Shown one piece after another: positions 4,566 to 33,193 of a stretch of DNA of 60,260 nucleotides (within the stretch, counting starts at the first letter, position 1; the number at the start of each line of letters is the position of its first letter). Under the pieces are notes generated by a model. It did no database searches and was not told the DNA's origin. It worked only from the letters and a program-made list of their open reading frames with translations. A program made the position numbers and the translations under genes. Origin of the DNA: Roseofilum acuticapitatum BLCC-M154 (GTDB lineage Bacteria > Cyanobacteriota > Cyanobacteriia > Cyanobacteriales > Desertifilaceae); NCBI RefSeq assembly GCF_030068475.1, contig NZ_JAQOSP010000150.1:1-60260 (forward strand). Reading direction: 5' to 3'.

Positions 4566-5204
4566 TTAAGTCTTGACAAATTTCACATGATTAATCGTAC
4601 CATCTTCCTTGAGCGATTTAATTTCTACAGTTACTTTGCCACTGTCAGAAATGTCATTAAAGTTTTTCGGTTCTTTTTCTTCATAAAAAATTCCGGCAAT
4701 TTCGTACTTGACTTTGTTGCCCTTTTTCTTTTCAACAACACTAGCCTTTATTTGCTTACCTACCTCTAGTGTAATCTGATCTCGGAACTGTTCTAACTTT
4801 TCTTGACGTACCTGTTGTTTATCAGAAGGAATATCATTGGAAATGGGAGCTTTTTCGCCAATGGGAGTCTTTTTGTAATACTGCATCAATCGAGCCGCCC
4901 AGCCTAAAATGTTCAGCATGACGGCTATATCATCCTGATAATCTTTAAGATGCTTTTGGCAAGTTTGAGCAATACTTTTAAAATATTGTTGGGTTTTTCC
5001 ACTACGGGCAATCGTATTGCCATGACGATCCAATGTCTTCAAATAGTCAAAGAATTTTTTGCCAGCATCTGCGCGATCGCTGTAGACGCGAAGATAGGAG
5101 AGGGTTTTGCGAAATTCATTATGATCAGTATCATCACGTACCAGTTGATCGGCGATCGCCTCAGCTACTTGCCATTGAGTCGGGGTTAAATCTGCTGTTT
5201 TCAT
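4566..5204 (-). CDS. Unrecognised last gene of the type III-D CRISPR operon
   Basis: A 212-aa protein started at the ATG 5204-5202. This overlaps the upstream Cas7 stop as TGATG, which strongly supports translational coupling and this start over one 39 bp upstream. The N-terminal 125 residues look helical and basic ('KKFFDYLKTLDRHGNTIA'); the last 60 look beta-rich ('GKVTVEIKSLKEDGTINHVK'). I see no RAMP glycine-rich loop, HD, nuclease or CARF motif. Operon position argues for a complex subunit or regulator. Subtype III-D loci are known to carry an uncharacterised all1473-like gene; this could be its counterpart, but I cannot test that here. Confidence 0.75.
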   Translation of the reverse strand: MKTADLTPTQWQVAEAIADQLVRDDTDHNEFRKTLSYLRVYSDRADAGKKFFDYLKTLDRHGNTIARSGKTQQYFKSIAQTCQKHLKDYQDDIAVMLNILGWAARLMQYYKKTPIGEKAPISNDIPSDKQQVRQEKLEQFRDQITLEVGKQIKASVVEKKKGNKVKYEIAGIFYEEKEPKNFNDISDSGKVTVEIKSLKEDGTINHVKFVKT

Positions 5205-6223
5205 CAGTAACTCTCCTCTGGTGCATGGTAATTTGTTGGCCATTTCAGGATCTGAGCCAGTTTTTCAAGTTGTTGTTTTTCAATCAAGCTATCATGAGCT
5301 GCTGTTAATGCCTGATTCACTAAATCCTGTCGCGCTTGATCGGTGAGGCGATCGCTGTCCGAAATAGTATACTGATGGTATCGCTGTTTCCAATTTTCAG
5401 GCTGTTCTAGGGCTTCAATTTCAACCTTCATTGTACCCATGCCAACGGGTTTACCACCACCGACTTTAAGGGCGATCGCATAGTTGGGATCTTGACCAAG
5501 AGAAACTAATAGCGTCCCAAACTGAGCGAAGGATAAATTCTTAAATTGGAGAGTTGTTTTAAACTGATACTCAGTTCCTGCCTGCTGGACTGAAACACCA
5601 CCCTTACTCACAGCCTCCACTGCATTATAGTAAAATTTTCGTCCAATAGCTTTCCCATTTTTAAAGTAAGCTTTTCGCTTATCAGAAGGAGCATAAAGTG
5701 ACCGCATAGAACCAGTAACTGGCTTCACTTGTTCGCAAATAGCATCAGTAAAGTGAATTAAGCCTTGCCAATTCAATGCACCAAAAACAAGACTAGCTGG
5801 ACAAAGTTGATCTTTTTTTCGGCAAGGTAGCCGATCTGGAGGCATCTTATCTTTATCGCTAACTACTGCAAGGGTACTGTTAGTAATTGCCTCATAAATA
5901 GAGCGCACAACCCCTTTAAAAGAACTGCCAGGAATAATCAGTTTTTGTTGCTGTCCTTGAGTCATGGTTTGAATGAGTGGCGCACGCTCACCAATATCTG
6001 TTCCCATCACTAAAATTCCAGTGGATATATGCACAGGAGTTTTCACCGTTAGCCTTAAAGTGAGCTTACCATGCAGAAGATCTTTGCAGTAGCGATCGTG
6101 TCCCACCGGAGGCTTAAGATCCGGTTTTTTTGCGGGAAATGGCACTAGATCGTAGGGTTTTGATCCAGAATTCTGAGGATCGGGTTTTTTAGGTAGGATG
6201 GGTCGATTAGGTGGGTTAGGCAT
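5204..6223 (-). CDS. cas7: Cas7-family RAMP, predicted non-cleaving backbone subunit
   Basis: A 339-aa RAMP protein of the type III effector backbone, expected to bind crRNA in the cytoplasm. After a proline-rich N-terminus of about 50 residues comes the RAMP fold: 'IIPGSSFKGVVRSIYE', a Cys-containing 'CRKKDQLCPASLVFG' segment, and the glycine-rich loop 'VGGGKPVGMGTMKV'. Where the other Cas7 proteins have Asp before the P-(V/I/L)-(I/V) strand, this one reads 'GERAPLIQT', with Arg in place of the presumed target-cleaving Asp. It is therefore probably structural. It lies 6 bp after the Csx19-like gene and overlaps the next gene by one base. Confidence 0.85.
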   Translation of the reverse strand: MPNPPNRPILPKKPDPQNSGSKPYDLVPFPAKKPDLKPPVGHDRYCKDLLHGKLTLRLTVKTPVHISTGILVMGTDIGERAPLIQTMTQGQQQKLIIPGSSFKGVVRSIYEAITNSTLAVVSDKDKMPPDRLPCRKKDQLCPASLVFGALNWQGLIHFTDAICEQVKPVTGSMRSLYAPSDKRKAYFKNGKAIGRKFYYNAVEAVSKGGVSVQQAGTEYQFKTTLQFKNLSFAQFGTLLVSLGQDPNYAIALKVGGGKPVGMGTMKVEIEALEQPENWKQRYHQYTISDSDRLTDQARQDLVNQALTAAHDSLIEKQQLEKLAQILKWPTNYHAPEESY

Positions 6224-6229
6224 AACTTT

Positions 6230-6658
6230 TTAAAGAATAGTAAGGGCGACAAAGTGAACCGTAGAAGTTTCTACATCAATAAAGTAACGCTGACCCAGAT
6301 TAATCGGTTGATGGTGAATTTTCTTGGGAAAGCGAGTCTCATTTTTGCGGTAGAGATGGGCAGGTTGAATCTTGGTTAACCAAGTTTTACCGAGAGGCTG
6401 AAAATTTTCATGTATCCCGTCTTCATTCAATAATAATAGGCTAAAACTTTCTCCTTGTTTTTGCCAGCGAAGTTCTTTGTGGTCATCAAATATTTGACCC
6501 TCTGGACTGGGAAAATCTACAGGTAAACTCTGGCAAAAGCCACTGACTTGGTGAGGCCACCTGAGAAAGAAATAAGACTTTTCTGTTTTGAGCGATTCTA
6601 GGAGCGATCGCAATTCCTCTGCTGAATCAACAGTATAAGTTCCTACAAATGCGCTCAT
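6230..6658 (-). CDS. Csx19-like type III-D subunit (tentative)
   Basis: A 142-aa protein whose ATG overlaps the upstream Cas7 stop (ATGA). Size, acidic-aromatic composition and the 'DDHKELRWQKQGESFSLLLLNEDG' block (an ELRW-type beta hairpin) fit Csx19, a small subunit typical of type III-D complexes, here slightly shorter than usual. I see no glycine-rich RAMP loop and no catalytic motif. The assignment rests on operon position plus weak resemblance; it could be another small effector-associated protein. It probably acts as part of the ribonucleoprotein complex. Confidence 0.55.
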   Translation of the reverse strand: MSAFVGTYTVDSAEELRSLLESLKTEKSYFFLRWPHQVSGFCQSLPVDFPSPEGQIFDDHKELRWQKQGESFSLLLLNEDGIHENFQPLGKTWLTKIQPAHLYRKNETRFPKKIHHQPINLGQRYFIDVETSTVHFVALTIL

Positions 6659-7602
6659 GCTTCCCCCCCCAAAAGCTTACTCCATGCCTTCACTGACCGT
6701 ATAAATAAATCTTTAACCTGTTCTGCTCCTGACCAGGTAAGTTTCACCCCAAATCCAAATTCCATCAGCGATCCAGCTACAGGTGTTGGTTGGCGATCGG
6801 GTTGATAAAATCCGTATTTATTAGCTTCATCAGTATCTAAAAATTCTCCAGCTCCCAATAACATCGTTTTATCCCATTGCCGATTTGCACCGATTGCCTT
6901 AATTTGTTCATTGTCTAAAATACAACCAGAATACTGAACAACTGCCTGATTAAAAGCCACTTTAACTAATCCCATCCCGCGAGACTTAGCATAACCCAAA
7001 CCAAACCATCCATCATCCAGATCTCGCAATACCAAAGCGATCAATCCTAATTGTGCCAAAGTGAAGTTTTTGAGGTGAATTTTCGTGCGAAATTCACCAG
7101 CAGTACAGACTTCATAATTAAATGGCCCAACAGCAACAGAGCCAAATACTCGGTCAATTGCTACCCCATTGCGTTCTTCTATTTTGAGTTGCTGGAAATT
7201 GATAGGATAAGCATCTTCAATCCGAACTCGACTGGCAATTTCCGTGCTGCCAAACATTTGATCGGTAAAACAGGATAATTTGTAAATTTCTGGTGCTGAT
7301 TTTTTACTGGGATATTCGTGGTTATCTTTAATCGGATCGTTCGCCCAAATTCCCTGGCCATTAGTGGGTCTTTTATCACTTCCCACTGTCCGCACAATCC
7401 GCTCCGCGTGGGCGCGAATGGCCCCTTTCAGCGAACTACCCGGCAGATAAATGGATCGTCTTCCCTGATAATAAGTATCCACAAATTCCATATCTGGTTT
7501 TGTGGGATCGGCTCCCTGTTTTCCTGACTTAATCAGGAGCGGGGCAGAGGGAGAAATATTCAGGTCAAGAATGCAGTGGTTGACATAGCGTTGGTGCATC
7601 AT
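6655..7602 (-). CDS. cas7: Cas7-family RAMP (Csm3-like)
   Basis: A 315-aa backbone RAMP. Motifs in order are 'YLPGSSLKGAIRAHAERIVR', 'QMFGSTEIASRVRIED', 'RNGVAIDRVFGSV' and the glycine-rich loop 'GLGYAKSRGMGLVKV'. An Asp lies ahead of the PGSS motif in 'KPDMEFVDT', in roughly the place of the Csm3 cleavage Asp, though the intervening loop is about three residues longer than in the neighbouring Cas7, so the assignment is less certain. The start at 7602 (Met-Met) follows a TTCTCC-complement ribosome binding site (GGAGAAA). There is a 7-bp gap from the upstream Cas7 and a 4-bp overlap with the downstream gene. Confidence 0.9.
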   Translation of the reverse strand: MMHQRYVNHCILDLNISPSAPLLIKSGKQGADPTKPDMEFVDTYYQGRRSIYLPGSSLKGAIRAHAERIVRTVGSDKRPTNGQGIWANDPIKDNHEYPSKKSAPEIYKLSCFTDQMFGSTEIASRVRIEDAYPINFQQLKIEERNGVAIDRVFGSVAVGPFNYEVCTAGEFRTKIHLKNFTLAQLGLIALVLRDLDDGWFGLGYAKSRGMGLVKVAFNQAVVQYSGCILDNEQIKAIGANRQWDKTMLLGAGEFLDTDEANKYGFYQPDRQPTPVAGSLMEFGFGVKLTWSGAEQVKDLFIRSVKAWSKLLGGEA

Positions 7603-7609
7603 TTTCTCC

Positions 7610-8467
7610 TTATGAATTAACTGGAGTGGAGGAAGATATTTTAGTTCTTAAGTGATTGATAAGCGCTTCAGTCCAAGTGGTTTTATACTCTTCAAAGCGT
7701 TCAGGTATTAGCTTGTAGTGATTATCTTTTTCATCATTGATTAATCGCTGGAGATAGGTGAGCAATTCCTGTGGATTATCTTGAGGATCGATCCAGCAAA
7801 CCTCTGAAATTTCTAATCGCACAACGCCTAACCCTCGCGATCGCCCGCCCCCCAGGGGAATTTGCTCGGTTTCTAACTGATGTAAGCCAATGATGAGTAA
7901 GCCTAATTCTAACTCTTCAGCATTTTCAACCACGGCTTTAAATTCAAAAGGCGTTCCCGCAGGAACAACTTGAAAATCATAGAGTTTGCCCTCAGCCGCA
8001 GTTCCTGTATCCCGATCTAGGCAAACACCATCCCGTTCTTGATATTGCCCGAACCAGGCATCAGAAATGACTGTTAAATCGCGAATTTGTAGTTTTCCTG
8101 CTATCCAAGGCGCACCAAATAGACAAGATACTAGATCGGTTTGATCGATCAATGCTACTGTTAAATCGGCATCATTAGTCGCCGTTTGCTTTTGATCTTT
8201 TAGCCAGCGTATCCAAGTCGATCCGGTAAGTTCGCTAGGCTCGATAGCTAGTTGAGGATCAATGGCACGTAAAAAGCTTTCTAGGCGCGATCGCAATGCT
8301 CCTTTAAAGCTTGAACCCGGAATAAAAGGTCTCCCTAGGGCATCTTTAATCACGGGCAAATCCGAACCGATAGGTTCACTCGATCGCCCTTTAGAAATTC
8401 GCAAAGCGGTGACAGTGGTCAGAGTTCCGGTAAGTTCTAGCCGGTTTTTGAAGACATCAAACATCAT
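7610..8467 (-). CDS. cas7: Cas7-family RAMP, Csm3-like with intact cleavage Asp
   Basis: A 285-aa RAMP with the clearest Csm3 signature in the operon. 'IGSDLPVIKD' aligns with the Csm3 segment that carries the known target-RNA-cleaving Asp (Asp33 in S. thermophilus Csm3). It is followed by 'FIPGSSFKGALRSRLE', 'CLFGAPWIAGKLQIRD', 'VCLDRDTGTAAEGKLYDF' and the glycine-rich loop 'LGGGRSRGLGVVRLEI'. It is predicted to cut target RNA between crRNA-paired segments. It starts 8 bp after the Cas11-like gene stop, as one of four Cas7-like subunits in the operon. Confidence 0.92.
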   Translation of the reverse strand: MMFDVFKNRLELTGTLTTVTALRISKGRSSEPIGSDLPVIKDALGRPFIPGSSFKGALRSRLESFLRAIDPQLAIEPSELTGSTWIRWLKDQKQTATNDADLTVALIDQTDLVSCLFGAPWIAGKLQIRDLTVISDAWFGQYQERDGVCLDRDTGTAAEGKLYDFQVVPAGTPFEFKAVVENAEELELGLLIIGLHQLETEQIPLGGGRSRGLGVVRLEISEVCWIDPQDNPQELLTYLQRLINDEKDNHYKLIPERFEEYKTTWTEALINHLRTKISSSTPVNS

Positions 8468-8475
8468 GGGTTACC

Positions 8476-8919
8476 TCAGTTATTTTTTAGTTTATTTTCT
8501 TTCTTATTAAGGTATACTAAGCGGCGAGAACCATAGCCAAGATAGCGCCGAATGAGTTCAATATGGATCGCTTTTTCATCGCTACTTCCTGCTTTTTGCT
8601 CAATTTCTCTTGCTTTAGATTTCAACCGATCATCAATATCAGTAATAATGCGTTCAGCCAATGAACCTTCTCCACACCCCCATTTGTCATCTCTACCTAC
8701 TTGATAGCGGAGAAAATTCTTAATCACTTCTGAACTGGTCGTTGTTTCTGATACTCGAAGCAAGTTGCGAAATTGAGCCTCTTCTAGTTTCTTCTGTCCT
8801 GTTTTAGGATAGTTTGTGCTTCTTAAAGCCTCTTCAATCCAACAAACCAATTCATCCTCAGCTTCACGGATACCTTTTTGTACTTGTAGTTCAATCCGTT
8901 GTTTTGGGTCAACACTCAT
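8476..8919 (-). CDS. cas11: Cas11-like small subunit (Csm2-like)
   Basis: A 147-aa, apparently all-helical, charged protein with no RAMP motif. It lies between csx10 and a Cas7, where type III-D operons carry the small subunit. The segment 'EEAQFRNLLRVSE' then 'VIKNFLRYQVGRDDKWG' resembles the central helices of Csm2/Cas11 proteins. The role would be to line the inner face of the complex along the target RNA. The ATG at 8919 overlaps the csx10 stop by 4 bp (ATGA), fixing the start. The identity is from size, position and a short motif only. Confidence 0.7.
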   Translation of the reverse strand: MSVDPKQRIELQVQKGIREAEDELVCWIEEALRSTNYPKTGQKKLEEAQFRNLLRVSETTTSSEVIKNFLRYQVGRDDKWGCGEGSLAERIITDIDDRLKSKAREIEQKAGSSDEKAIHIELIRRYLGYGSRRLVYLNKKENKLKNN

Positions 8920-10115
8920 ACTGCATTCTCCCGAAAGATATGATGAAATGTGTTACAAACTTGTACTTGACCAAAGCCTTCCAGAGTGCGATCTCCTACA
9001 CCCTGATATTCTAGTTCCTTTAAAGCATCGATCCATACCTCTATTTTAGACGTACTGAACAAAAAAACCGCTCCTTTCTGAGTAATAAGCTCAACATCTT
9101 TCATCAGTCCCCATGCAGAATTCCAGCCTGACCAATAATCATAACTGCTATAGGTTCCATGAAGCCGTAAATCAGGATCTTCCACCTTCGTCATAGCACA
9201 GAGCATCGCTGGTGAAATTACCATTGTCCGCCGCCATTGCTCCGTGAGAATGGCATCAGACTGTAAATCCAGAGTAAAAAACCGATGGTCTTGAATCAAT
9301 GAATCTTGAGATTTTCCAAAAACGTCATTCCAAACTTTCCAGCGTTCTTTCAAAACCGTATTAAATTCATTGACTCTCGCTTCAGTTTCAGACTTATAAT
9401 CTTTAACTTCTGCTTGAATTTCAACTTTCCCCAATCCCCGCGATGTCGATCCCCCCAATCGCAAGTGACTCGAAGTAAGATAATTCCCTAAATCTTCGGA
9501 AAGTTCTCTATCTTTCAAATAAACATAACTCTCGAAACATTTATCTTTTTGATGTTCGCTAATCACTTGAATGCTGTAGAGTACCTCCTCTTCTGCGGTA
9601 GCTCTCCGACGATTAATCCCCACTTTAGTTAATAATCGCTTTTCAGCAGTATGGGATGTATACTGACCATTTTTAACACTATAAAAACCACTAAACGGTT
9701 CTACTCTTCTTCCATCTTTTGGACAATTTGGATCGTACAATTGACCATGAAAGTCTGCACAAAATCGGTCAATTAGTGTATCAAAAACACCGGCATTTCT
9801 CGATTTTTCTGATTGGAAACCAGGGTCAGATTTAGAACTGACTGCCGTTGCTGATAAAACATAAACTTCTTCTCCTTCCACGGTTGGGTAGGCATTAGTA
9901 AAAATCGCTGCTTCTCGATCGACAAAAAGCGTCTGAAAATCGCCACCAGGACGATCTGGATCAACACCAGGCTGGTGGAGGATATGAGCAGCAACTGCAC
10001 CGCGAATCACCGATCCAGGGATATAGTCTTGAGCTTCACTGATTGAACCTCCCGGTTTTTGGCGGCTAATTGCCAATGGTGAAAGAGCTTTAATTTTAAG
10101 TTTAATTTCTTTCAT
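8916..10115 (-). CDS. csx10: Csx10, Cas5-group RAMP of type III-D
   Basis: A 399-aa RAMP protein that would hold the 5' handle of the crRNA. The N-terminus 'LSPLAISRQKPGGS' followed by 'DYIPGSVIRGAVAAHIL' is typical of Csx10. Two glycine-rich loops, 'LGGSTSRGLGKVEI' and, near the C-terminus, 'GVGDRTLEGFGQVQV', show two RAMP-like folds in one chain. The start at 10115 is chosen because it overlaps the upstream Cas7 stop as ATGA; the next upstream Met would add ten residues inside that gene. Csx10 is a marker gene of subtype III-D. Confidence 0.9.
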   Translation of the reverse strand: MKEIKLKIKALSPLAISRQKPGGSISEAQDYIPGSVIRGAVAAHILHQPGVDPDRPGGDFQTLFVDREAAIFTNAYPTVEGEEVYVLSATAVSSKSDPGFQSEKSRNAGVFDTLIDRFCADFHGQLYDPNCPKDGRRVEPFSGFYSVKNGQYTSHTAEKRLLTKVGINRRRATAEEEVLYSIQVISEHQKDKCFESYVYLKDRELSEDLGNYLTSSHLRLGGSTSRGLGKVEIQAEVKDYKSETEARVNEFNTVLKERWKVWNDVFGKSQDSLIQDHRFFTLDLQSDAILTEQWRRTMVISPAMLCAMTKVEDPDLRLHGTYSSYDYWSGWNSAWGLMKDVELITQKGAVFLFSTSKIEVWIDALKELEYQGVGDRTLEGFGQVQVCNTFHHIFRENAV

Positions 10116-10837
10116 GAGAGACTCTCTTGTGCTAAAAAATTCCAAACTTTTTGATCGATATTTTCTTTTTCACCGGTTACTTCCCAAGTCAGCCAACCCA
10201 ATCCGGCTGACTTACTGCCCCCCAATGCATGAATATGTTTAATAGCTGATAAGAGGAGAATGTTGGCATAAGTGGGACAATTTGGCTCTAGATAAATAGA
10301 GCCTTTGAAGGGTAGTTTTACATTCATTGCTGAAGTTTCCAGGAAAAATAGCTTTTTCTCTTCTGCGGTTTGGCGGCGACGATTAATGGTCACACCAGGA
10401 CGCAGGACTTCAGGTAAATTTTGGGGATCTTCTGGACAAATTAAATCATCTACAAGAATCCGCGATCGCAGAGTGGGATTACCAAAAATTTGGCAGACCA
10501 AACAGTGGTAAGATTCATCATCGTTAACTTTATATTCTTCTCGATAAAAACCCTCTTCATCATCAGAATTCGCTCTTTGTGGACACATCATTTGTGGATT
10601 AGGAGATTCACAAATGGGCCATTTTAGTCCACGTAGTAATTTTTCACATTCGTGGCGCAAGCGACCTTTTAACTGAGATCCAGGAATCAACAATTTACCC
10701 TCAGCAGTGCGAACAATGGGCTTATCTGCTAAAGAACCCGATGAACCGCCTGCGCCAACACATAAAGCGGTATCAATTAAGGCAGTTAGCTCAATGGTAC
10801 GGTAAGAATTTGGCATTAATGTACTTAATTGAACCAT
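10112..10837 (-). CDS. cas7: Cas7-family RAMP with Cys cluster
   Basis: A 241-aa RAMP directly downstream of cas10. Motifs are 'LADKPIVRT' (Asp at the same distance from the IPGS motif as in the 285-aa Cas7), 'LIPGSQLKGRLRHECE', four cysteines in 'PICESP', 'MMCPQR' and 'YHCLVCQIFG' that could bind zinc, 'GVTINRRRQTAEEKKLF', and the glycine-rich loop 'LGGSKSAGLGWLTWEV'. It is predicted to be a backbone subunit able to cut target RNA. Its ATG overlaps the cas10 stop as TAATG, so the two are translationally coupled and probably adjacent in the complex. Confidence 0.88.
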   Translation of the reverse strand: MVQLSTLMPNSYRTIELTALIDTALCVGAGGSSGSLADKPIVRTAEGKLLIPGSQLKGRLRHECEKLLRGLKWPICESPNPQMMCPQRANSDDEEGFYREEYKVNDDESYHCLVCQIFGNPTLRSRILVDDLICPEDPQNLPEVLRPGVTINRRRQTAEEKKLFFLETSAMNVKLPFKGSIYLEPNCPTYANILLLSAIKHIHALGGSKSAGLGWLTWEVTGEKENIDQKVWNFLAQESLS

Positions 10838-13113
10838 TAGGAAACCTCCGCTTCACTTTCGATAGATTGTTCAGATGTTTTGTCTGGCTCTTCTACAAAT
10901 GGATACAGATCAACCAGTTCATGCCAAATTGTTTCATAGGTGGTGCTAGAATCTTCTTTTAATGACATCCAAGGTGCTAAATTACCCCTATTATTCCGAT
11001 CTTTAGGTGGACACCAAGCTTCTTCAAATTTTTTGAGTAGAGGTTGTTGTTTTTCTTCTTTTAACCGCACTCGAAAATAGCGGTAGTTCAACATAGCAGT
11101 ATTCTTACCTTGCTCTAGTAAGCTCCGAACCTGGTAAAGTTGCGATCGCGGAAATTCAGAATCTTTCAGTGCCTTCACCGTTTCCAGTAATCCACCGATT
11201 TCATGCAAAGTATAGGGTGCAGCATAAAGCTTGAGCTTAGGCTTACCTTCAATCTCTAATCCCTTTTTACGAAATGTTGCAATACTAGAAGATAGCATCG
11301 TGACAGATTTCATTACCAAAAAGTCAATAGTACCCCCATAATAACTGGCATTTTTCTTCGCTTCTTTTGCTTTTTTCTTAGCAGATTTTAGAAGTTGCTT
11401 TGTTAGGTCTTCCGCATAGTAAATGGGAGTATCCAGTGCTGTAATTAATACGCCAACAGACATACTTAGTTGACAGTGAGAACTAGGAGCTTCGCCCAGT
11501 TTCCAGCGATGAATTGTGCTTTCTGGTTTCTGTATCTTTTCAGAAGATACTGCCAAAGAAGGATCGAGCATCAGTAAAATATTTTCAAACTCTTCACCAA
11601 TAGTTTTAGCGATTTCCAAGGCTTTTTCTGCCGGTACAATTAGCATCACATCATCGCCACCAATCGTCAAAATTTCAAAAGGATGAATCCATTTTCCATT
11701 CCGGTTTTCATTGTCCGAATCATTCAAACCTTCCAGCTTGCGTGGCTTGAGATGGCGTTCTAATGCTTTGTAAACGGATTTTTCTGTAGCTTCAGATACA
11801 TTTTCACTAAATCTCTGATATTCTTGTGGTGTTTTGATTTTCTGAATATAACCTCCCATGTTATTACCATCAGCATAAACATAAGCAACAAAACCTTTAG
11901 GCTCACTTACATTACCCAATTCACGGAGCGATCGCGCTTCTTTGTGAGAGTCTTCTAAATGTTGATATTCAGGACAATTACGGTATAGTGCATCAGAGGT
12001 TAGATAACCTTCAAATTTGCTCACCCAACTTTTAAATTCACCTGGCTCCCAATCAAGCCATTCTGATGACTTATACCAGCCTACATTTTGACTATCACGC
12101 TTGGATTTTTGACCCGCAATTCGTTTCCGTGCCAGAGAATCAGATAACCAAGGCTCACTGGGTAAACGTTGAGCTTGACGCACAGTAGAACGGTGTTCAG
12201 TTTCGTCTCGTCGCACATAGGGATGGGTTTCAAACATAGGTGGATAACGACGACTTGGACGGTTTTCTTTAGGCTGTTCATAGCCACTGCGACGCTGATT
12301 AAAGCGAGTCGCTAATTGACCAACCAGTTCATTAAAACTCTTACGATCTTTGAAGTTTTCAGAAGGATCGGATTCTGATTGACCATAATAGGCTTGAACT
12401 AAAGGATGTGAGCTATTGCGTTGATACCACTCCAGCCAATTAGTCTCTTGAATAGGCTCTTTGAGTAAACCGAAACGGAGTTCTAGAAATCGAAAGGTAT
12501 CACCTACAGCACAAGAATTAGCCGTTAAACTTTCTTCGGTGTATCGCTTTTCAATGGCATTAGCCAGTTGATCAATATATGCGGCTGGACAAAATGCGAG
12601 AATATTACCCCCTGTGGAATAAATAATTAACTCAGGAATGAGAGCCTGATGCAATCCTGGGAAATTTTCTGGTTTATCTAACCACTGCTTAATTAAAGTG
12701 GATTCACCTTGACCAAAGAAAGCAGGAATATCTACAAGATTAATGCGATCTAGGAGCGCAGAAGCACCCCGGATATCTTGTAGATTGGATGCTTCAAAAA
12801 CATACTGTTTGATTTTTGTTGCTCCTCCATAAACCAACCCAATCTTGGCATTCCATAAATTGGGATTTTCCTCACTCAGTTGTTGCAATTGCTCCACAGT
12901 CTCAGGATAAGGTAATTCTGCCAACTTTTGAGCCTGCTCAACAAAAGGCTTGACTTCTGCTGGTAAATCTCCTTGAGCTAGAAGAATATTTCTCATCTGC
13001 TGTAGATCTTCAATACTGATCTGGGGCTGCTGCTCTTCACCCCAAGCTAGACACCAAGCGATGCCTATAGAAATGGGATCTGTTTCTGTTAATAAACTAC
13101 TATTTTTTGGCAT
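10837..13113 (-). CDS. cas10: Cas10, HD-less cyclic oligoadenylate synthase
   Basis: The 758-aa large subunit of the type III effector. 'IKQYVFEASNLQDIRGASALL' near residues 101-121 is the characteristic Cas10/Cmr2 N-terminal segment. The first Palm domain has 'YADGNNMGG' (about 413-421). The cyclase Palm has the intact GGDD at about 485-488, within 'LTIGGDDVMLIV'. A helical stretch 'LLKSAKKKAKEAKKN' follows. There is no HD nuclease motif in the first 110 residues, as known for subtype III-D Cas10, so ssDNA cleavage is probably absent while messenger synthesis from ATP is retained. Low homology at about 240-400 may be an insert. It starts 37 bp after the CARF-RelE gene. Confidence 0.95.
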   Translation of the reverse strand: MPKNSSLLTETDPISIGIAWCLAWGEEQQPQISIEDLQQMRNILLAQGDLPAEVKPFVEQAQKLAELPYPETVEQLQQLSEENPNLWNAKIGLVYGGATKIKQYVFEASNLQDIRGASALLDRINLVDIPAFFGQGESTLIKQWLDKPENFPGLHQALIPELIIYSTGGNILAFCPAAYIDQLANAIEKRYTEESLTANSCAVGDTFRFLELRFGLLKEPIQETNWLEWYQRNSSHPLVQAYYGQSESDPSENFKDRKSFNELVGQLATRFNQRRSGYEQPKENRPSRRYPPMFETHPYVRRDETEHRSTVRQAQRLPSEPWLSDSLARKRIAGQKSKRDSQNVGWYKSSEWLDWEPGEFKSWVSKFEGYLTSDALYRNCPEYQHLEDSHKEARSLRELGNVSEPKGFVAYVYADGNNMGGYIQKIKTPQEYQRFSENVSEATEKSVYKALERHLKPRKLEGLNDSDNENRNGKWIHPFEILTIGGDDVMLIVPAEKALEIAKTIGEEFENILLMLDPSLAVSSEKIQKPESTIHRWKLGEAPSSHCQLSMSVGVLITALDTPIYYAEDLTKQLLKSAKKKAKEAKKNASYYGGTIDFLVMKSVTMLSSSIATFRKKGLEIEGKPKLKLYAAPYTLHEIGGLLETVKALKDSEFPRSQLYQVRSLLEQGKNTAMLNYRYFRVRLKEEKQQPLLKKFEEAWCPPKDRNNRGNLAPWMSLKEDSSTTYETIWHELVDLYPFVEEPDKTSEQSIESEAEVS

Positions 13114-13150: not shown

Positions 13151-14269
13151 TCAAGGATTATTATTCACTTCCGGTTCTTTCCCATATCGTCGCAAGTGTA
13201 GAACGCCATTTTCTGTAGTACAACTGACTCGCAAGCCTTGAGTGACACGAAAATGCTCAATATCTCCTTTATTGGTATACTTGTCGTATTGAATTCCACC
13301 ATCTTGCTTTAAAAGACTGGTACTGCCATTGGACTTCTCAAGGAGTACCGACACTTTCACTAAAACTTCTTGGAGCTTCGTGCGTTCTCGATCGTTTTTA
13401 ATTTTGTTATAGTCTTCTCTAAATCTATCGCTATACTGGATTCTTTTAAGATCTAATAGATCTTTGGAAAGAAAAGACTCTTTTGATGCATCCCAAATCA
13501 GTTTACCCCAGGTTGACAATACTTTTTCACCGTCAATATCTCCAATCATAGCTTCTGGAATTCCCTGAACTTCTGAGGGTGATAAGCCTAGTCCAGTGTC
13601 CATAAATGCTAAAGGAACAACATATTCTTTTAGCTTGTCTTCATCAACTTTAATTGGTAAACGAGGAATCTTAATTAGTTCTGAGTTTTCTCCTTCAAAA
13701 ATGTAAATAATTTCATCAGCATAGAGCATCCCAATGGTATTCAAATACCCTTGTAGGCTCTTGAAGCTGCCCACAAGATTGAAGATCACTTTATCGTATC
13801 CTTCCAAAACCGATCGAAGATGATCGAGTAAATCATCAATTCCTTCAGTAAAGGCTTGAGTTGTCAAAGTGGATAGTCCTTTGGGTTGATAGACTTGAGC
13901 CGGTATATTTTGACTGATTAAAAATTGATTAACTACTTGAGCAGTAGCTTCTCCTTGAGCTGTATCAGTAGCAATGAGCCAGTGAACATCTTGTTTTGCT
14001 TTGTCTATCTGTTCTTCATAGAGTCCGTAAATTCCATTCAATTCAGCACTGGATGCTCTGATATTTTTTATGGATTTATTTTTCAGTGTTTGTTTGGCTC
14101 TTGTTTTTAAGATTTCAATAATTTCTTTAACTTTTTCTGGTGTTTGCTCTGCCGTCAAGTTGGCATAATCTCGAAGGATTTTGTTCCAATCTCGTTCTTC
14201 TTGGTTTTTGTTATCGATTTGCTTGGTTAATAAGCTTGTGCCAACGGTAGAAATGATAACTTTAGACAT
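13151..14269 (-). CDS. CARF-RelE CRISPR ancillary effector (Cami1-like)
   Basis: A 372-aa protein. Residues 1-215 match the APE2256/TIGR02619-type CARF domain, which binds cyclic oligoadenylate: 'VIISTVGTSLL' at the N-terminus, 'LIATDTAQGEA' near 98, 'FNLVGSFKSLQGYL' near 163, and 'YIFEGENSELIKIPRLP'. A linker leads to a C-terminal domain of about 100 residues whose end ('HFRVTQGLRVSCTTENG', 'LHLRRYGKEPEV') looks RelE/ParE-like. This is the architecture of Cami1, a cA4-activated mRNA interferase. The start at 14269 has an AGAGG ribosome site; an ATG at 14314 would overlap the upstream gene. The CARF call is firm, the RelE call moderate. Confidence 0.82.
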   Translation of the reverse strand: MSKVIISTVGTSLLTKQIDNKNQEERDWNKILRDYANLTAEQTPEKVKEIIEILKTRAKQTLKNKSIKNIRASSAELNGIYGLYEEQIDKAKQDVHWLIATDTAQGEATAQVVNQFLISQNIPAQVYQPKGLSTLTTQAFTEGIDDLLDHLRSVLEGYDKVIFNLVGSFKSLQGYLNTIGMLYADEIIYIFEGENSELIKIPRLPIKVDEDKLKEYVVPLAFMDTGLGLSPSEVQGIPEAMIGDIDGEKVLSTWGKLIWDASKESFLSKDLLDLKRIQYSDRFREDYNKIKNDRERTKLQEVLVKVSVLLEKSNGSTSLLKQDGGIQYDKYTNKGDIEHFRVTQGLRVSCTTENGVLHLRRYGKEPEVNNNP

Positions 14270-14310
14270 AATTAAACCTCTTGAAAATTGACTGTGTGAC
14301 TGTGTAAAAT

Positions 14311-15237
14311 TCAATCTCTGGAGTTTATGATTTTTTTGATAATCACCTCCAAGAGGACATCTGGTGCAGTTGGTCTTTGGTCACGCTCCCACTTTCCAGC
14401 AATGAGTTCTAGATAGGGTTGGGTATGTAATACTTCGACTTTCTCCTCTAAAACACTGTGAATGACGGCGACTGGGGTTAAAGCTTGACAGAGCTTGTGC
14501 CAAATGGGGATTTGATCCGGTTGACTGCTGATGATGATGTAGTGGGTGCATTCCTCTACTATGGGTAACTTTACAGGATCGGGTTTACCTCCTACATCTA
14601 CAAGGGCTAAATCAACTACGTTGCGAATCTTGCGAGTATTCTTGGCTTGATCTTCAAAATACTGTATTAAAAGTTTTTCTGAATCAGGGTGTTTACAAAT
14701 TGGAACTTTGTTTTTTTGCTTCAAACGCTTGGATAGCTCTCTGTCTGGGGTTTCGTAGGTGTGGTTGCCTTCACCGTCCCAGTTGGCTCGATGTAAGTAA
14801 CTGCTCAGATAAGGTAAAGTTTGGGACAAGTGTACCCGAAGTGTATTAGATAGGACACTTTTGCCGCTATTGGGCGGGCCGACAATTAGGAGCGCGGGGG
14901 ACAAATTATTACTAAACTCAAGGGGAATGGTATCTCCTATGGTGATGTCAGAAGAGTGACTGATGACGACGATCGCCGCTTGTGCTTGAATGTTAAAAAA
15001 GGCTACCCATGGAAAGGAGGAAAATTTTTCTCCCAGATAGGTATATAACCAGACGGGAGCGCGACCAAATAAAAGTAAGGGTTGATCGGGGTCTAAATCT
15101 GGAGGAAATTCTAGGTTGAGTAAGGCTTCAGTGGAGATGAGTTCTGAGGGTTTGAGTAGGTTGATGGCTAAAGTTTGAATTAAGTCATTAACGGGTGCTT
15201 TTGCCTTCAGAAAAATGCGCTGTAATTCGACTTCCAT
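14311..15237 (-). CDS. Csx3-like domain fused to P-loop ATPase
   Basis: A 308-aa fusion. Residues 40-105 follow the Csx3 pattern ('GRAPVWLYTYL', 'WVAFFNIQAQ', 'VVISHSSDITIGDTIPL'). Residues 112-305 are a P-loop NTPase: Walker A GPPNSGKS at 120-127 and a Walker-B-like 'LALVDVGG' at 210-217. Csx3 is a ring nuclease that breaks cyclic tetra-adenylate, and Csx3-AAA fusions are known in cyanobacteria. Compared with the stand-alone Csx3 next door, the counterparts of His68, His71, Asp80 and Arg82 are Glu, Ser, Asn and Gln. Only the late His is kept. The Csx3 part is therefore probably a ligand sensor or scaffold, not an enzyme. Confidence 0.85.
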   Translation of the reverse strand: MEVELQRIFLKAKAPVNDLIQTLAINLLKPSELISTEALLNLEFPPDLDPDQPLLLFGRAPVWLYTYLGEKFSSFPWVAFFNIQAQAAIVVISHSSDITIGDTIPLEFSNNLSPALLIVGPPNSGKSVLSNTLRVHLSQTLPYLSSYLHRANWDGEGNHTYETPDRELSKRLKQKNKVPICKHPDSEKLLIQYFEDQAKNTRKIRNVVDLALVDVGGKPDPVKLPIVEECTHYIIISSQPDQIPIWHKLCQALTPVAVIHSVLEEKVEVLHTQPYLELIAGKWERDQRPTAPDVLLEVIIKKIINSRD

Positions 15238-15256
15238 GATGATAAAATAAGGCTGA

Positions 15257-15586
15257 TTAGGAGAAGGTGGGTAAGTCTAAAGGCAATACTTGACTGACGT
15301 TAAGGGTTGGGGAATGGGTGGCAATGACAACACCGCCTAAACGGGTGTCATAGCAAGCAACCCAGGCTGCTGGATGACATTCATGGACGAGATAGCCATA
15401 GAGCCAAATGGGGGCTTTTCCTTCAAGAATTACACCTTGGGAATAGTCGAGTTTGGGTAGTTTTAATCCTTTGAGATCTTCGGGGACAATGACACCATTT
15501 TCGGTGAGAATTTCGATGTGAAGATGTTGATAGTTAAGTCCCGATCGCGTTTGATGGGGAATTACGGTTAGCTGTACTGAACTCAT
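15257..15586 (-). CDS. csx3: Csx3 (Crn3) ring nuclease
   Basis: A 109-aa stand-alone Csx3. The core 'GVILEGKAPIWLYGYLVHEC' continues with 'HPAAWVACYDTRLGG' and 'VVIATHS', giving His68, His71, Asp80, Arg82 and His91, the set expected for metal-dependent cleavage of cyclic tetra-adenylate. Its role would be to switch off the Cas10 signal after an infection is cleared. It is the first gene of the operon, 19 bp before the fusion protein that carries a degenerate copy of the same domain. A TATAAT box lies about 30 bp upstream of the ATG. Confidence 0.92.
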   Translation of the reverse strand: MSSVQLTVIPHQTRSGLNYQHLHIEILTENGVIVPEDLKGLKLPKLDYSQGVILEGKAPIWLYGYLVHECHPAAWVACYDTRLGGVVIATHSPTLNVSQVLPLDLPTFS

Positions 15587-30100: not shown

Positions 30101-30332
30101 GACCCCGATTGCTTTAGAGTTAGGGGCAGGCTCTCAGGTGCGATCGCCCCTAGCTATTTCTGTAATTGGCGGGATGACGACGGCAACGTTATTAACGCTG
30201 GTGGTTGTCCCTACTTTGTTTACCTATATCCATGGTTTCGGTCGTTTTCTGTTGCGTTTAATCCAAGGCCAACCCCTGAAACGGCCTCGCCTAGCCCTCT
30301 CTTCTGAAGGAAAAAAGAGCCAGTTTAATTAG
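27105..30332 (+). CDS. RND-family efflux permease (AcrB/MdtB-like)
   Basis: A 1075-aa proton-driven inner-membrane pump. The N-terminal helix 'KPVPTLVLFLILGIVGF', the porter 'VSVTIVQPGAGPTELETEV', the TM4 region 'LALSMGNLVDDAICMIENI' with the paired Asp residues for proton relay, and the C-terminal 'IGIVLLMGLVTKNAILLVD' are all present. Length is usual. The cytoplasmic linker after TM6 (about residues 500-550) is longer and hydrophilic, and contains a 20-bp palindromic DNA repeat read in frame. The gene forms a pair with the adaptor upstream. No outer-membrane channel gene is in the window. The substrate is unknown. Confidence 0.93.
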   Translation: MSFKISSWSIHKPVPTLVLFLILGIVGFFSFTQLGIDENPNIDVPFVSVTIVQPGAGPTELETEVTKKVEDAVASLEGVDDIRSTVTDGQSSTSIAFELNVNSDTATNDVRNAIAQIRQTLPQDIEDPIVQKVDFIGQAVISYAVTSPKRSVEELSDLVDRDITRALLSIQGVARVDRIGGVDEEIRIDLNPARLQALGITASEVNQQIRAFNINLPGGRSQTGGTEKSIRTLGSAQTLDTLKSYRIVLPSGEAVPLTSLGEVHNGFAEPRQLSRLTIKGNPEVQQAPVVGFSVWRSSGSTLVSVEEGVQAKVAQLRETLPADIQLELIFTNADYTRLSYQASIDALVLGSLLTVVTVGIFLKDWRATLITAVALPLSIIPTFIVMRALDYTLNDMTLLGLALSMGNLVDDAICMIENITQHIQMGKRPFQAALDAANEIGLAVLATTATIVAVFLPVAFMGGIPGKFFQPFALTVAVSTMFSTLVATTMTPMLAAYLLKGKKVRGDVGANGRSPSQDGPSLDNSDPNHHSLDDHLAHRGFRWGQHTFHPYRRILSWALSHRIITLIVAVALFMGSLQLVPLIPTGLFAGYDRGLSRVTVELPPGSPLALTDQVMQKTTAILQEHPAFKSALASAGEGDSGINEGLITVNLLPQEEREVSQKEFEQEMREKFVQIPGARVSFQSQGAAGNTKDVSVVLNSENPASLKRTADQLESFMRGLPGLVEVSSSASLVKPELLITPDPKRATDLGVSVEAIARTASLATIGDNDANLAKFNLPDRQIPIRVQIATESRNDMETLRNLRVPSQNGGVVPLMAVADIHIGSGPSQIDRFDRLRQVSIEGNLQGLSLGQAMEPINEWLEANLPPDVQQQPSGDAEIMRDIFSRFASSLGLAVLGIYAILVLLYNNFIYPTAIMAALPLSVGGALVALMITQKELGLFALIGIVLLMGLVTKNAILLVDCSLANMREEGMSLKPAVISAGVSRLRPIFMTTFSTIAGMTPIALELGAGSQVRSPLAISVIGGMTTATLLTLVVVPTLFTYIHGFGRFLLRLIQGQPLKRPRLALSSEGKKSQFN
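28630..28649. repeat. Perfect 20-bp palindrome inside the RND gene
   Basis: GGGCGAACGGCCGTTCGCCC is a perfect palindrome preceded by GTAG. It is translated in frame as part of the hydrophilic central loop ('GANGRSPSQ'). It looks like an interspersed palindrome that inserted where the protein tolerates extra residues. Confidence 0.75.
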
Positions 30333-30522
30333 GGTTAATGGGTTGAACTAGCGGGCAAGATGCCCGCACTCCCTCAATCTGAGTGATATTACTGGAGTGG
30401 GAGCATCTTGCTCCCTGGATTTTTAATTAGGGTTAATGGGTTGAACTAGCGGGCAAGATGCCCGCACTCCCTCAATCTGAGTGGTATTACTGGAGTGGGA
30501 GCATCTTGCTCCCTGGATTTTT
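30327..30522. repeat. 98-bp tandem duplication containing MITE hairpins
   Basis: Two direct copies begin at 30327 and 30425 and differ at one or two bases. Each has both hairpins of the dispersed element, GCGGGCAAGATGCCCGC and GGGAGCATCTTGCTCCC, joined by ACTCC...GGAGT. The first copy begins in the last codons of the RND gene (AATTAG). The terminal ATCAAGTCCG repeats are absent. The hairpins could also end transcription of the RND gene, though no T-run follows. Confidence 0.8.
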
Positions 30523-30559
30523 ATAGATCGCTAGAATACCTCACTCGCTAGATTGAGTC

Positions 30560-30610
30560 TCCCCATTCCCCCATTCCCCCATTCCCCCATTCCCCCATTC
30601 CCCCATTCCC
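30560..30610. repeat. Short tandem repeat (ATTCCCCC)n
   Basis: Six copies of an 8-bp unit, ATTCCCCC, run up to the 3' end of the convergent gene at 30614. A degenerate relative lies at 48762-48824. Confidence 0.8.
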
Positions 30611-30613
30611 ACA

Positions 30614-33193
30614 CTACAGTGCTTTGCGCTGTATCAATCGCTCTACCCTTCCCGTACTGCCATCCATTTTGACCCAATCTCCATCTTTTAAGAAACGGGT
30701 GACTCCGGGAAGGGAAACAATGGCGGGAATACCCATTTCTCTGGCAACAATGGCAGAATGGGAGAGCAGACTTCCACGCTCGACTAATACGCCAGATGCA
30801 GCCGGAAAGAGCATGATCCAGCCGGGATCGGTGCGTTCGGCGACGAGAATGCTACCGGGTTCTAGAATGGCGTTTTCTGGGTTGGTAATGACTCTGACTT
30901 GGGCTTCGACGATGCCGGGACAACAGCCTAACCCTTGTAAGGTGTCCGGGTTATCTGAGTCTACTATAGAAGCCTGGTTTTCCTGGAAACGGTTGCCTTG
31001 ATAGACGATGCCACGGGTTTCAAAGCGATCGCCAATCTCCCCATTTTGCTCATATTCGGCAAATTTAGCTTTTCTTAATTGTACCAAACCTTTCAAGTTT
31101 GTGCAAGTATTCGTTCCTTCCACAAAGCCTAAAATTTCGGTCACTTCCAGATAAAAGATATCGCGATAATCATCGAGCAGATCGAGCGCTACGAACCGCT
31201 TACCGAGTTCCACAAAAATGCGGCGCACATGGCCAAATAAGCGGGTTCGTTCAAAGCGGAGATTTTCGCGATCGCGCACCCGTTCCCTGGCATTATACAG
31301 CACCCAATCAAACAGCCAGCGTTTTAAGCCAAAATTCCCCAATTTTTCCCTAACTTTCGCCTCTGCTGCTTGGCGCAAGTCCCCCGAAACCGATGCAGAA
31401 TCTAGGTTTTGACCGGATTTTGCTAGTTGACCTACCGATCGCAGCAGCAATAGAGGATTATCGAATAGGGTGGGACTTTCGAGCTTCAGCTCTCCCAAAC
31501 AGCGATCGCCAAATTTGTCTAAATACGCTTCATACTTTTGCCTCACCTCTGGGCGCTTTTCCAACTCAGACAAAATCAGCCCTAATTCCCCCTCACAAAA
31601 AACTTGAGTGAGTGCCTCATCTTGCGCTACCAATCGAGCTAATTCTTTCACCCGCATCGCCGGTTCTGCGCTAATCATTCCCCCTTCACCGCTAATCAAA
31701 TCATTTTGTAAACTCCCAGAGGTTTCCTTACCCCAAGATTGGCACAACTTTTTCAAAATTCCATAGAAAATCATGGCAAAAAAGTCATTAATTAAGGGTG
31801 CATCCCAACTGCGTAATAACTGACGCTCTAAATCCCGGTAATGGGCTACTAATTCATCGGCGCGTAACTCCTGTAACTCTAATCCCTTAAACTTCTGACC
31901 CAAAACTTGCATTAATCGCCCATAAAACTCCTTAATCTTAGAAGGTAATAGGATAAAGTTTAGTCCTAAACCTACAACTGTCCGCAACAACCGCAAGCTA
32001 TCCAGAATTTTCACCGAGAGAGTCGGTTTTTGACTCGGTTGAATGCCAATAGACTCTAAAATTTCATCAGAAATGGGTTCTTTCACTCCCATCATCTGTT
32101 CCATAAATCGACGATTGACTTGGAAGCCAGGCAACAGAGACAAAACCTTGTACCAACTGAGGAGATTATAGTAAACGCGCCCTTGAATCAAGCCAATCAT
32201 ACGATTAAAGGTTGAGTCATTATTTTCTACTACTGTTTTATCTACTGCCATTAACAGGCAAAATTGCCGGTAAACTTCCTCATAAGCACGACGAGCAAAG
32301 GAAAAGGTTAAAGGGGTGGTAACTCCGCTATAGCTTTCGGAGATGTTGCTATTATCCCAAAGATTCAATTGAGCATCGGGATCGGGGAGTTTGGCTAATC
32401 CGGTAATTGGTCTGGCTTGCAGTAAATAAACTTGGTTGTTTTCTATTGCCCATTCGATGTCTTGGGGGCGACCAAAATACGCTCCTACTTGACGAACTAG
32501 ATGGGTAATTTGCTTTAAGGTTTCTGGGTTTAATAAGGGGTTATCTTCCGGTGCAGAAATTATCGTTCCTTGGCGATGAATTCGGTAAGTTTGTCCATCC
32601 ACTTCCCCGGAAACCAAGGCATCCCCAACTCCTGATACGGCGCTAATCACGGTAACTCCCCGTTGACCGGTGACGGGATCGGCTGAAAAGGCGACTCCGG
32701 CAATTTCGGCATTGACCATGCGCTGAATCAGGACGGCTGGGGGTTTGGGGTTGCCGAGATGATGCTGCTGACGGTAGGCTAGGAGGCGATCGCCGAATCC
32801 AGAGCGCCAAACCTCTACTACGCGATCGTCTACCTCCTCCAGAGGCACAAATAGGAAGCTCTGCAATTGTCCCGCAAAGGAATAGTCGGCTCCATCTTCA
32901 TCTACGGCCGAAGAGCGCACCGCAACCAGTTCCCCATTTGGAGAGAGATGTTTGAGGGCTTGTGCTAATTCTGCTTTTACTTTATGATTTAGGTGCAATG
33001 CTGCAATAACTTGGGGAATAGTGTCTGTTGTTAAACTCTCTCCCTCAGTTAAGCTATGGTAAAACGCACTGGGTGACACCACAAACCACTCAGGAATGGG
33101 TAAGTTGAGAGCTTGGAGTTGAGCGAGAGCCGCACCTTTACCTCCTAGTTGTTGAGGATTTTTGCTGTTTTGAGCCGTGAGAATGTAAGTCAT
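30614..33193 (-). CDS. PEP/pyruvate-binding phosphotransferase-like enzyme
   Basis: An 859-aa protein with the PEP-synthase layout. The N-terminal ATP-grasp domain (about 1-265) has 'LGGKGAALAQLQALNLPIP', 'VAVRSSAVDEDGADYSFAGQ' and 'DIEWAIENNQVYLLQARPI'. A helical middle of about 480 residues follows. The C-terminal swivelling domain has the phosphohistidine motif 'RGSLLSHSAIVAREMGIPAI'. True PEP synthase has a TIM-barrel at the end, which is missing here. This makes it closer to rifampin phosphotransferase-type enzymes, where ATP phosphorylates His and the phosphate moves to an acceptor. The acceptor is unknown; the helical middle would be the acceptor-recognition part. Confidence 0.85.
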   Translation of the reverse strand: MTYILTAQNSKNPQQLGGKGAALAQLQALNLPIPEWFVVSPSAFYHSLTEGESLTTDTIPQVIAALHLNHKVKAELAQALKHLSPNGELVAVRSSAVDEDGADYSFAGQLQSFLFVPLEEVDDRVVEVWRSGFGDRLLAYRQQHHLGNPKPPAVLIQRMVNAEIAGVAFSADPVTGQRGVTVISAVSGVGDALVSGEVDGQTYRIHRQGTIISAPEDNPLLNPETLKQITHLVRQVGAYFGRPQDIEWAIENNQVYLLQARPITGLAKLPDPDAQLNLWDNSNISESYSGVTTPLTFSFARRAYEEVYRQFCLLMAVDKTVVENNDSTFNRMIGLIQGRVYYNLLSWYKVLSLLPGFQVNRRFMEQMMGVKEPISDEILESIGIQPSQKPTLSVKILDSLRLLRTVVGLGLNFILLPSKIKEFYGRLMQVLGQKFKGLELQELRADELVAHYRDLERQLLRSWDAPLINDFFAMIFYGILKKLCQSWGKETSGSLQNDLISGEGGMISAEPAMRVKELARLVAQDEALTQVFCEGELGLILSELEKRPEVRQKYEAYLDKFGDRCLGELKLESPTLFDNPLLLLRSVGQLAKSGQNLDSASVSGDLRQAAEAKVREKLGNFGLKRWLFDWVLYNARERVRDRENLRFERTRLFGHVRRIFVELGKRFVALDLLDDYRDIFYLEVTEILGFVEGTNTCTNLKGLVQLRKAKFAEYEQNGEIGDRFETRGIVYQGNRFQENQASIVDSDNPDTLQGLGCCPGIVEAQVRVITNPENAILEPGSILVAERTDPGWIMLFPAASGVLVERGSLLSHSAIVAREMGIPAIVSLPGVTRFLKDGDWVKMDGSTGRVERLIQRKAL

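Follow-up and report, generated by a model that had tools for sequence, protein, structure and literature searches.

In a type III-D locus of the cyanobacterium Roseofilum acuticapitatum BLCC-M154, we found a Csx3 with its complete catalytic set encoded directly before a second Csx3 (hereafter Csx3') that has lost its catalytic histidine pair and is joined to an intact P-loop NTPase domain. The same pairing, originally predicted from this one locus, occurs across many genera of cyanobacteria, and its conservation shows that it is a lasting partnership of a live and a dead Csx3, not decay. We found no description of such a pair in the literature searched; it may already be in print.

The paired csx3 genes of the Roseofilum locus

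The stretch of DNA that we analyzed (the window, 60,260 nucleotides) carries the two genes as intact open reading frames on the minus strand, at the positions first reported for them: csx3, which encodes a stand-alone Csx3/Crn3 of 109 aa (15257..15586), and, 19 nt after it, the csx3'-NTPase fusion gene, which encodes 308 aa (14311..15237). The stand-alone protein matches the Pfam family Cas_csx3 (PF09620; 107.6 bits, cut-off 21) and TIGR02579 (97.6 bits, cut-off 55.4), and in an alignment to A. fulgidus Csx3 (AfCsx3; 3wzi) its residues H68, H71, D80, R82, and H91 correspond to H57, H60, D69, R71, and H80, the full set of five key residues. The fusion matches the PADLOC model Csx3-AAA (PDLC01045; 218.3 bits over residues 4-304), a Csx3 domain followed by a P-loop domain. 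Its Csx3' domain (residues 21-108; 14914..15177, minus strand) scores 61.6 bits with PF09620 and 47.0 with TIGR02579, below the latter's cut-off of 55.4, and carries E70, S73, N82, and Q84 at the catalytic positions, with H94 (equivalent to H80) as the sole survivor; F57-G58-R59 stands where AfCsx3 has S44-G45-R46. Foldseek returned AfCsx3 as the first match to the AlphaFold model of the fusion (E about 1e-6; mean pLDDT 83.7, compared with 92.8 for csx3), which gives the linked domain a predicted Csx3 fold. Chance or misalignment as the source of the lost residues was ruled out, as G45, W50, W64, and the AfCsx3 alignment fix the register. The live and dead residues listed in the original prediction were thus confirmed, together with a complete Walker A motif (GPPNSGKS, residues 120-127; 14857..14880, minus strand).

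For AfCsx3, the mutants H60A and D69A are reported to be inactive and R71A and H80A strongly impaired; H57, H60, and H80 are described on one face, D69, R71, and most cA4 contacts on the opposite face, and dimers are described as sandwiching cA4 between them. The window's stand-alone protein resembles AfCsx3 in family, in all five key residues, and in its type III locus, and is a predicted cA4 ring nuclease with catalysis deduced from these residues, whereas the linked copy shares the predicted fold and lacks H57, H60, D69, and R71. Judged from its residues, the window fusion would not be expected to cleave cA4 through the known mechanism.

The pair is followed on the same strand by a Cami1-like effector of 373 aa from its ATG (13151..14272), which has the CARF plus RelE architecture of Cami1 (PADLOC PDLC01934, CARF_RelE; 446.6 bits over residues 2-367), cas10 (10837..13113), whose product has GGDD as its cyclase motif (residue 485) but no HD dipeptide, and the type III-D effector genes (Csm3-like, Csx10, Csm2-like, Csx7, and neighbours; 4566..10837). 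An HTH-WYL regulator (TIGR03985; 15664..16995, plus strand) diverges from csx3. Because Cas10 retains GGDD and lacks the HD dipeptide, signalling rather than Cas10 DNase activity would be the expected output. No CRISPR array was detected within positions 1-36000 of the window at the settings used. Elsewhere in the window, a 98-nt stretch is directly repeated, its two copies being nearly identical (30324-30519), and the 8-nt unit CCCCATTC forms an array (30553-30616). In the genome-contig collection searched, the nearest named relative is Roseofilum halophilum, with 93% identity in the best-matching segment over the fusion.

The P-loop NTPase domain (residues 112-299; 14341..14904, minus strand) had been taken for an AAA ATPase, and here the original prediction was not supported. 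A Walker B of AAA+ proteins follows the rule hhhhDE, and the window sequence LVDVGG, which contains the Walker B/G3-like DVGG motif (residues 214-217; 14587..14598, minus strand), has no E after D214. Pfam AAA matches to the fusion fall below the cut-off; profile matches to Vps4, RuvB-like, NSF, Hsp104, and TRIP13 cover the P-loop region only (E 0.05 or worse), and among the 50 Foldseek matches listed one is titled NtrC-like (3fkq), with no other AAA+ name. The best-scoring match of the P-loop profile is the GTPase Der (E 6.6e-5 overall, with both motifs aligned and each stretch weak alone), followed by adenylate kinase 8 (E 0.00065) and SRP receptor beta, and after AfCsx3 the Foldseek search of the fusion lists SRP/SRP54, FtsY, and GPN-loop GTPases with low TM-scores. 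The domain is thus closer to the GTPase/kinase class; an AAA+ label is unsupported by motif and profile matches, and the database name AAA is doubtful. In a difference from Der/SRP-class GTPases, the Csx3' fusions carry a conserved W-DGEG stretch between the P-loop and DxGG motifs. Among the 25 linked copies described below, G-SGKS is invariant (25/25) and DxGG is present in 24; the exception is an interrupted gene of Baaleninema, in which the frame runs into an insert. In published accounts, the P-loop domain of Csx3 fusions is termed a kinase/transferase (PMC7371418) and its role is called unknown (PMC7371418, PMC12409355).

Residue conservation across cyanobacteria

To follow these residues through the cyanobacteria, we ran PF09620 against two partly overlapping genome sets, 386 from the phylum and 388 from the order (47 and at least 140 genomes matched, respectively), and searched one genome-contig collection with a profile built from three paired fusions, which gave 11 loci, all with csx3 upstream. 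Identical domains were dropped and residues were read off one profile alignment; the final counts omit sister-family or partial matches (L003, L037, L039, L123, and L126), and one-chain proteins were counted apart. Among the matches listed, we found 25 distinct linked copies directly after a csx3, on the same strand and separated from it by at most 75 nt or overlapping it, with a single wider gap, 224 nt (in L051, it is the ORF start that produces a large computed overlap). None of the 25 keeps H57 or H60. H80 is kept in two, the Roseofilum sequences with H94, while D69 is kept in 14/25, R71 in 12/25, both together in 9/25, and G45 in 25/25. The predicted loss of the active set in the fusion therefore stands for the two histidines, and the loss of D69 and R71 seen in the window is not general. 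The stand-alone partners have the full set (H57, H60, D69, R71, and H80) in 24 of 25 cases, the remaining one carrying H60Y, and so do 35 of the 36 lone csx3 genes. In the clade of single fusions (n=42), H60 is present in 41, H57 plus H60 in 39, and the full set in 33; the contrast in H60 loss between linked copies (25/25) and this clade (1/42) has a Fisher p of 2e-17, with relatedness ignored.

Other conserved catalytic residues in the fused family had been named beforehand as evidence that would count against a dead domain; nothing is conserved at the lost positions of the 25 linked copies, and we rejected new catalytic residues in Csx3'. We also considered complementing half-sites, in which the D69 face of Csx3' would serve the H60 face of Csx3. 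This arrangement fits 9 of the 25 copies and not the window, and cannot be a general mechanism, since only these nine retain both D69 and R71.

The original prediction further tied the loss to a neighbouring stand-alone csx3. This is true of every linked copy that directly follows csx3 (25/25), but two members of the single-fusion clade with csx3 downstream (L085 and L097) keep H60. The only H60 loss within that clade (L121) has no adjacent csx3; about 12.6 kb downstream on its contig, just past more type III-D genes, lies a pair of the sister family described below, whose first copy has the histidines, and this arrangement fits the neighbour rule. As a repeated rule, by which an adjacent csx3 makes the linked copy dead, we rejected it: the dead copies form one main group in the trees and L085 and L097 contradict it. 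Its extension to sister csx3 genes was also rejected, as G326 and G199 have a sister csx3 nearby yet intact fusions.

Both trees that we built are quick ones, based on few columns and including some long rows. In the tree of P-loop domains (71 rows), the 42 single-fusion rows form one group (99), within which H60 is lost once (L121), and the remaining rows are paired, one-chain, and sister proteins. The tree of Csx3 domains (134 rows) sets all 27 linked copies on one side of a branch (93), namely the 25 that directly follow csx3 and two that are chained to a second Csx3 module in one-chain proteins. The live/dead contrast needs about 3 changes on the P-loop tree, so it goes back for the most part to a single old split, with one further, separate loss, and not to many repeats. 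The layout of the linked proteins is identical to that of the cyanobacterial Csx3-AAA or Csx3' proteins (PDLC01045), which include the described Csx3 fusion slr7080 (PMC9676260). Unlike the single fusions, however, the linked group has its catalytic face erased, stands separate in both trees, and always has a second Csx3 adjoining or in the same chain.

Within Csx3' (25 copies, 84 columns), the former catalytic histidines are among the most variable positions (H60 7th and H57 12th), with R46 25th, R71 27th, D69 36th, and H80 40th, while P33, D36, G45, W50, and W64 are invariant. New common features have appeared: an aromatic residue at S44 (Tyr, Phe, or Trp in 24/25), Arg or Lys after H57 (20/25), and Ser before H80, which is itself replaced by Arg in 14/25. 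In six pairs of close relatives, one member being common to two of the pairs, dN/dS is 0.13-0.36 in Csx3', 0.06-0.24 in csx3, and 0.06-0.30 in the P-loop portion. Taken together with the P-loop motifs, these values indicate that the Csx3' fold was kept, the active site lost, and the P-loop domain left intact.

Two loci contain damaged fusions next to an intact csx3. In Baaleninema simplex PCC 7105 (L138 3723-6348), an insert of about 1.2 kb, bearing a 391-aa ORF on the opposite strand, splits the P-loop part, and in G424 (L137 968-1704) the fusion is a 60-aa 3' remnant ORF; the same-genus G434 has a full pair. Since csx3 persists in these two loci, and alone in 36 cases, it does not depend on the NTPase.

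One-chain proteins and a sister family

In G008 (L033 9647-11023) and G629 (L124 6841-8070), we found Csx3, Csx3', and the P-loop domain joined in one chain. The second module of G008 has the linked signature and the first has that of a stand-alone Csx3 (E at S44, then G and K); the first module of G629 has diverged too far to be assigned. In the tree of Csx3 domains both first modules are placed weakly beside the linked group (81, long branches), and the G008 residues are what suggests a descent of these modules from csx3. Such proteins support a physical partnership of the modules. Both modules lack H57 and H60 in both proteins, which shows that cleavage is dispensable in some cases. Downstream of the one-chain gene, G008 encodes a CARF protein (314 aa, TIGR02619 family).

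Weak PF09620 matches led to a distant sister family with the same P-loop family (e.g. L136 4944-6278, L139, L141, L144, L145, L157, L158, and, in the window genome's own contig C39, L038 6541-7911, G000:C39). We examined 24 loci out of a longer listing, comprising 7 split pairs, 6 one-chain proteins, 3 loci with a csx3-like gene and a bare P-loop gene, and 8 that are lone in the stretch fetched; in L139 the ORF of the second copy stops ahead of any P-loop. The split pairs have lost the second helix histidine in the downstream copy only (6/7) and the first histidine in none (0/7), where the second is equivalent to H60 according to MAFFT and to H61 according to HMMER, and their linked copies keep G45, D69, and K71 in 7/7. 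All six one-chain proteins have the second histidine in both modules; module 1 lacks H80 in 6/6 and module 2 lacks H57 in 4/6. The asymmetry is thus similar, and not identical, to that of the main family. Many sister loci adjoin type III or WYL genes, with a WYL match in 14/24 stretches, while the stretches examined for L038, L040, and L142 contain none of the reference genes. A small gene for an HD hydrolase (L033 8918-9502, SpoT/RelA-like, 67.7 bits, under the model cut-off) is found in G008 and seems recurrent: one protein cluster that by eye resembles it occurs in 7/24 sister loci (e.g. L136 2998-3633).

Possible roles of the dead Csx3 and its P-loop domain

We propose a division of labour within one complex, between an active ring nuclease and an inactive partner that bears the NTPase, a reading to which we give roughly even chances. 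In this proposal, csx3 would make the cA4 ring nuclease and csx3'-NTPase a paralogue with the metal/catalytic face erased and the Csx3 fold and P-loop site retained. As products of one operon, the two would form a single complex, Csx3' being the non-cutting Csx3 subunit that tethers the NTPase to active Csx3, either by pairing with it in a mixed dimer or by forming one layer of the stack that Csx3 builds head-to-tail on cA4. Removal of cA4 by active Csx3 would bound the time for which the complex stays engaged, and nucleotide turnover by the P-loop domain would drive or report this engaged state. The residues, the gene order and constant pairing of the genes, the predicted fold, the signs of purifying selection, and the natural fusion of the modules are observed, whereas csx3 catalysis, physical contact, dependence on cA4, and the job of the NTPase are inferred. 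Mixed assemblies are possible in the Csx3 family, as the AfCsx3 mutants H60A and D69A are reported to regain activity when mixed, and the sister asymmetry and the one-chain proteins strengthen the idea of a partnership. Against it, the pairing goes back largely to a single ancient event, csx3 persists where the fusion is damaged or absent, the one-chain proteins of the main family lack both active sites, and those of the sister family keep the second histidine in both modules (6/6). The tandem as a working partnership, as originally envisaged, thus gains from the constant pairing, the one-chain proteins, and the sister family, and is weakened by its mostly single origin and by the exceptions.

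The main rival, which is the original reading and which we regard as somewhat unlikely, is a sensor with a separate eraser: by holding cA4 uncut, Csx3' would activate the P-loop domain to give an immune output, and the stand-alone Csx3 would erase cA4 independently. The model for this is Cat1, described as a filament effector glued by cA4, on which it stacks, without ring nuclease activity. Profiles of Csx3' find Cat1 (E 0.0019 and E 0.0009) and the Foldseek search of the fusion lists it (E 5e-4); a single-sequence, non-profile search reached only E 1.3, and Cat1 is absent among the matches listed in another search. If both profile matches, whose lengths are equal on the two sides, are ungapped and the paper's numbering applies, W215 of Cat1 corresponds to the invariant W63, K225 to H60, and N234 to the D69 position. 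Both proteins would combine an enzyme with a domain, related between the two, that holds cA4 and does not cut it, although the enzyme is a TIR in Cat1 and a P-loop domain, with no TIR, in the window fusion, and Cat1 is not known to have a live partner gene. A retained capacity to hold cA4 is in line with the AfCsx3 mutant H60A, reported to bind cA4 still and to give fibre-like material, and with the G45, D69, and K71 of the sister linked copies; in the main family, however, R46, D69, and R71 are not conserved, contact side chains are changed in many members, the S44 position is aromatic in nearly all, and every linked copy has its own csx3. A different family, Csx15, is described as stacking head-to-tail on cA4 and as having some members that cut and others that mainly sponge, and the accounts of it consulted mention no P-loop fusion.

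Alternatively, Csx3' could be a brake: using one face, it would cap active Csx3, prevent the productive dimer-dimer sandwich, and delay the loss of cA4 until freed by the NTPase. The arginines that Csx3' has gained on its catalytic side (R or K beside H57 in 20/25, R at H80 in 14/25) look as though this side could still cap cA4, the opposite face being altered, but they are not invariant and we consider a brake improbable. A still less probable role is product handling, with the P-loop domain as a kinase/transferase that modifies A2-P or another nucleotide channelled by the Csx3 modules. This would agree with the published kinase/transferase label (PMC7371418), with weak kinase profile matches (adenylate kinase 8, E 0.00065; APS kinase, E 0.19; GRC3, E 0.83), and with the fusion of the domain to a Csx3 that has H57 and H60 in 39/42 proteins of the single-fusion clade; these kinase matches, however, are limited to the P-loop stretch, and the top match that also aligns the second motif is the GTPase Der. 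That the linked Csx3 is a remnant without a role, as its drifting catalytic positions, the interrupted Baaleninema gene, and the G424 remnant might suggest, we consider highly improbable, given the invariant core fold, the dN/dS of 0.13-0.36, and the retention of the domain in 25 distinct sequences.

Elements of division of labour and of cA4 holding could also combine, and although unlikely on present evidence, the two proteins may co-assemble on cA4 in a Cat1-like stack that acts as a timer, having arisen or been re-shaped in two lineages. If so, dead subunits would hold the stack and switch on the GTPase-like domain, live ones would dissolve it by cutting the ligand, and the dead-to-live ratio would set the duration of the signal. 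Together with Cat1, the pair suggests that the Csx3 fold can change from signal-eraser to signal-holder. In single fusions, ring nuclease and NTPase share one chain and are hard to separate; at paired loci, one protein has the NTPase site only and the other the ring nuclease site only, making them natural separation-of-function reagents, and the retention of the live-plus-dead pairing by relatives renders the job of the P-loop domain testable.

Apart from the window, 19 of 24 paired loci hold a match to its WYL protein, as do 10/12 single-fusion loci and 5/23 lone-csx3 loci among those examined in wider stretches. PADLOC identified 10 neighbours of paired loci: eight CARF effectors, one Cmr1, and one WYL, the CARF effectors comprising five HEPN (in 4 loci) and three PD-DExK proteins. 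As the effectors beside the pair differ (RelE, HEPN, and PD-DExK), a role on the shared signal seems likelier than one on a single effector. Between the pair and cas10, the same slot is occupied by the CARF-RelE gene in the window (13151-14272) and by a CARF-HEPN gene in R. halophilum (L106 6064-7311).
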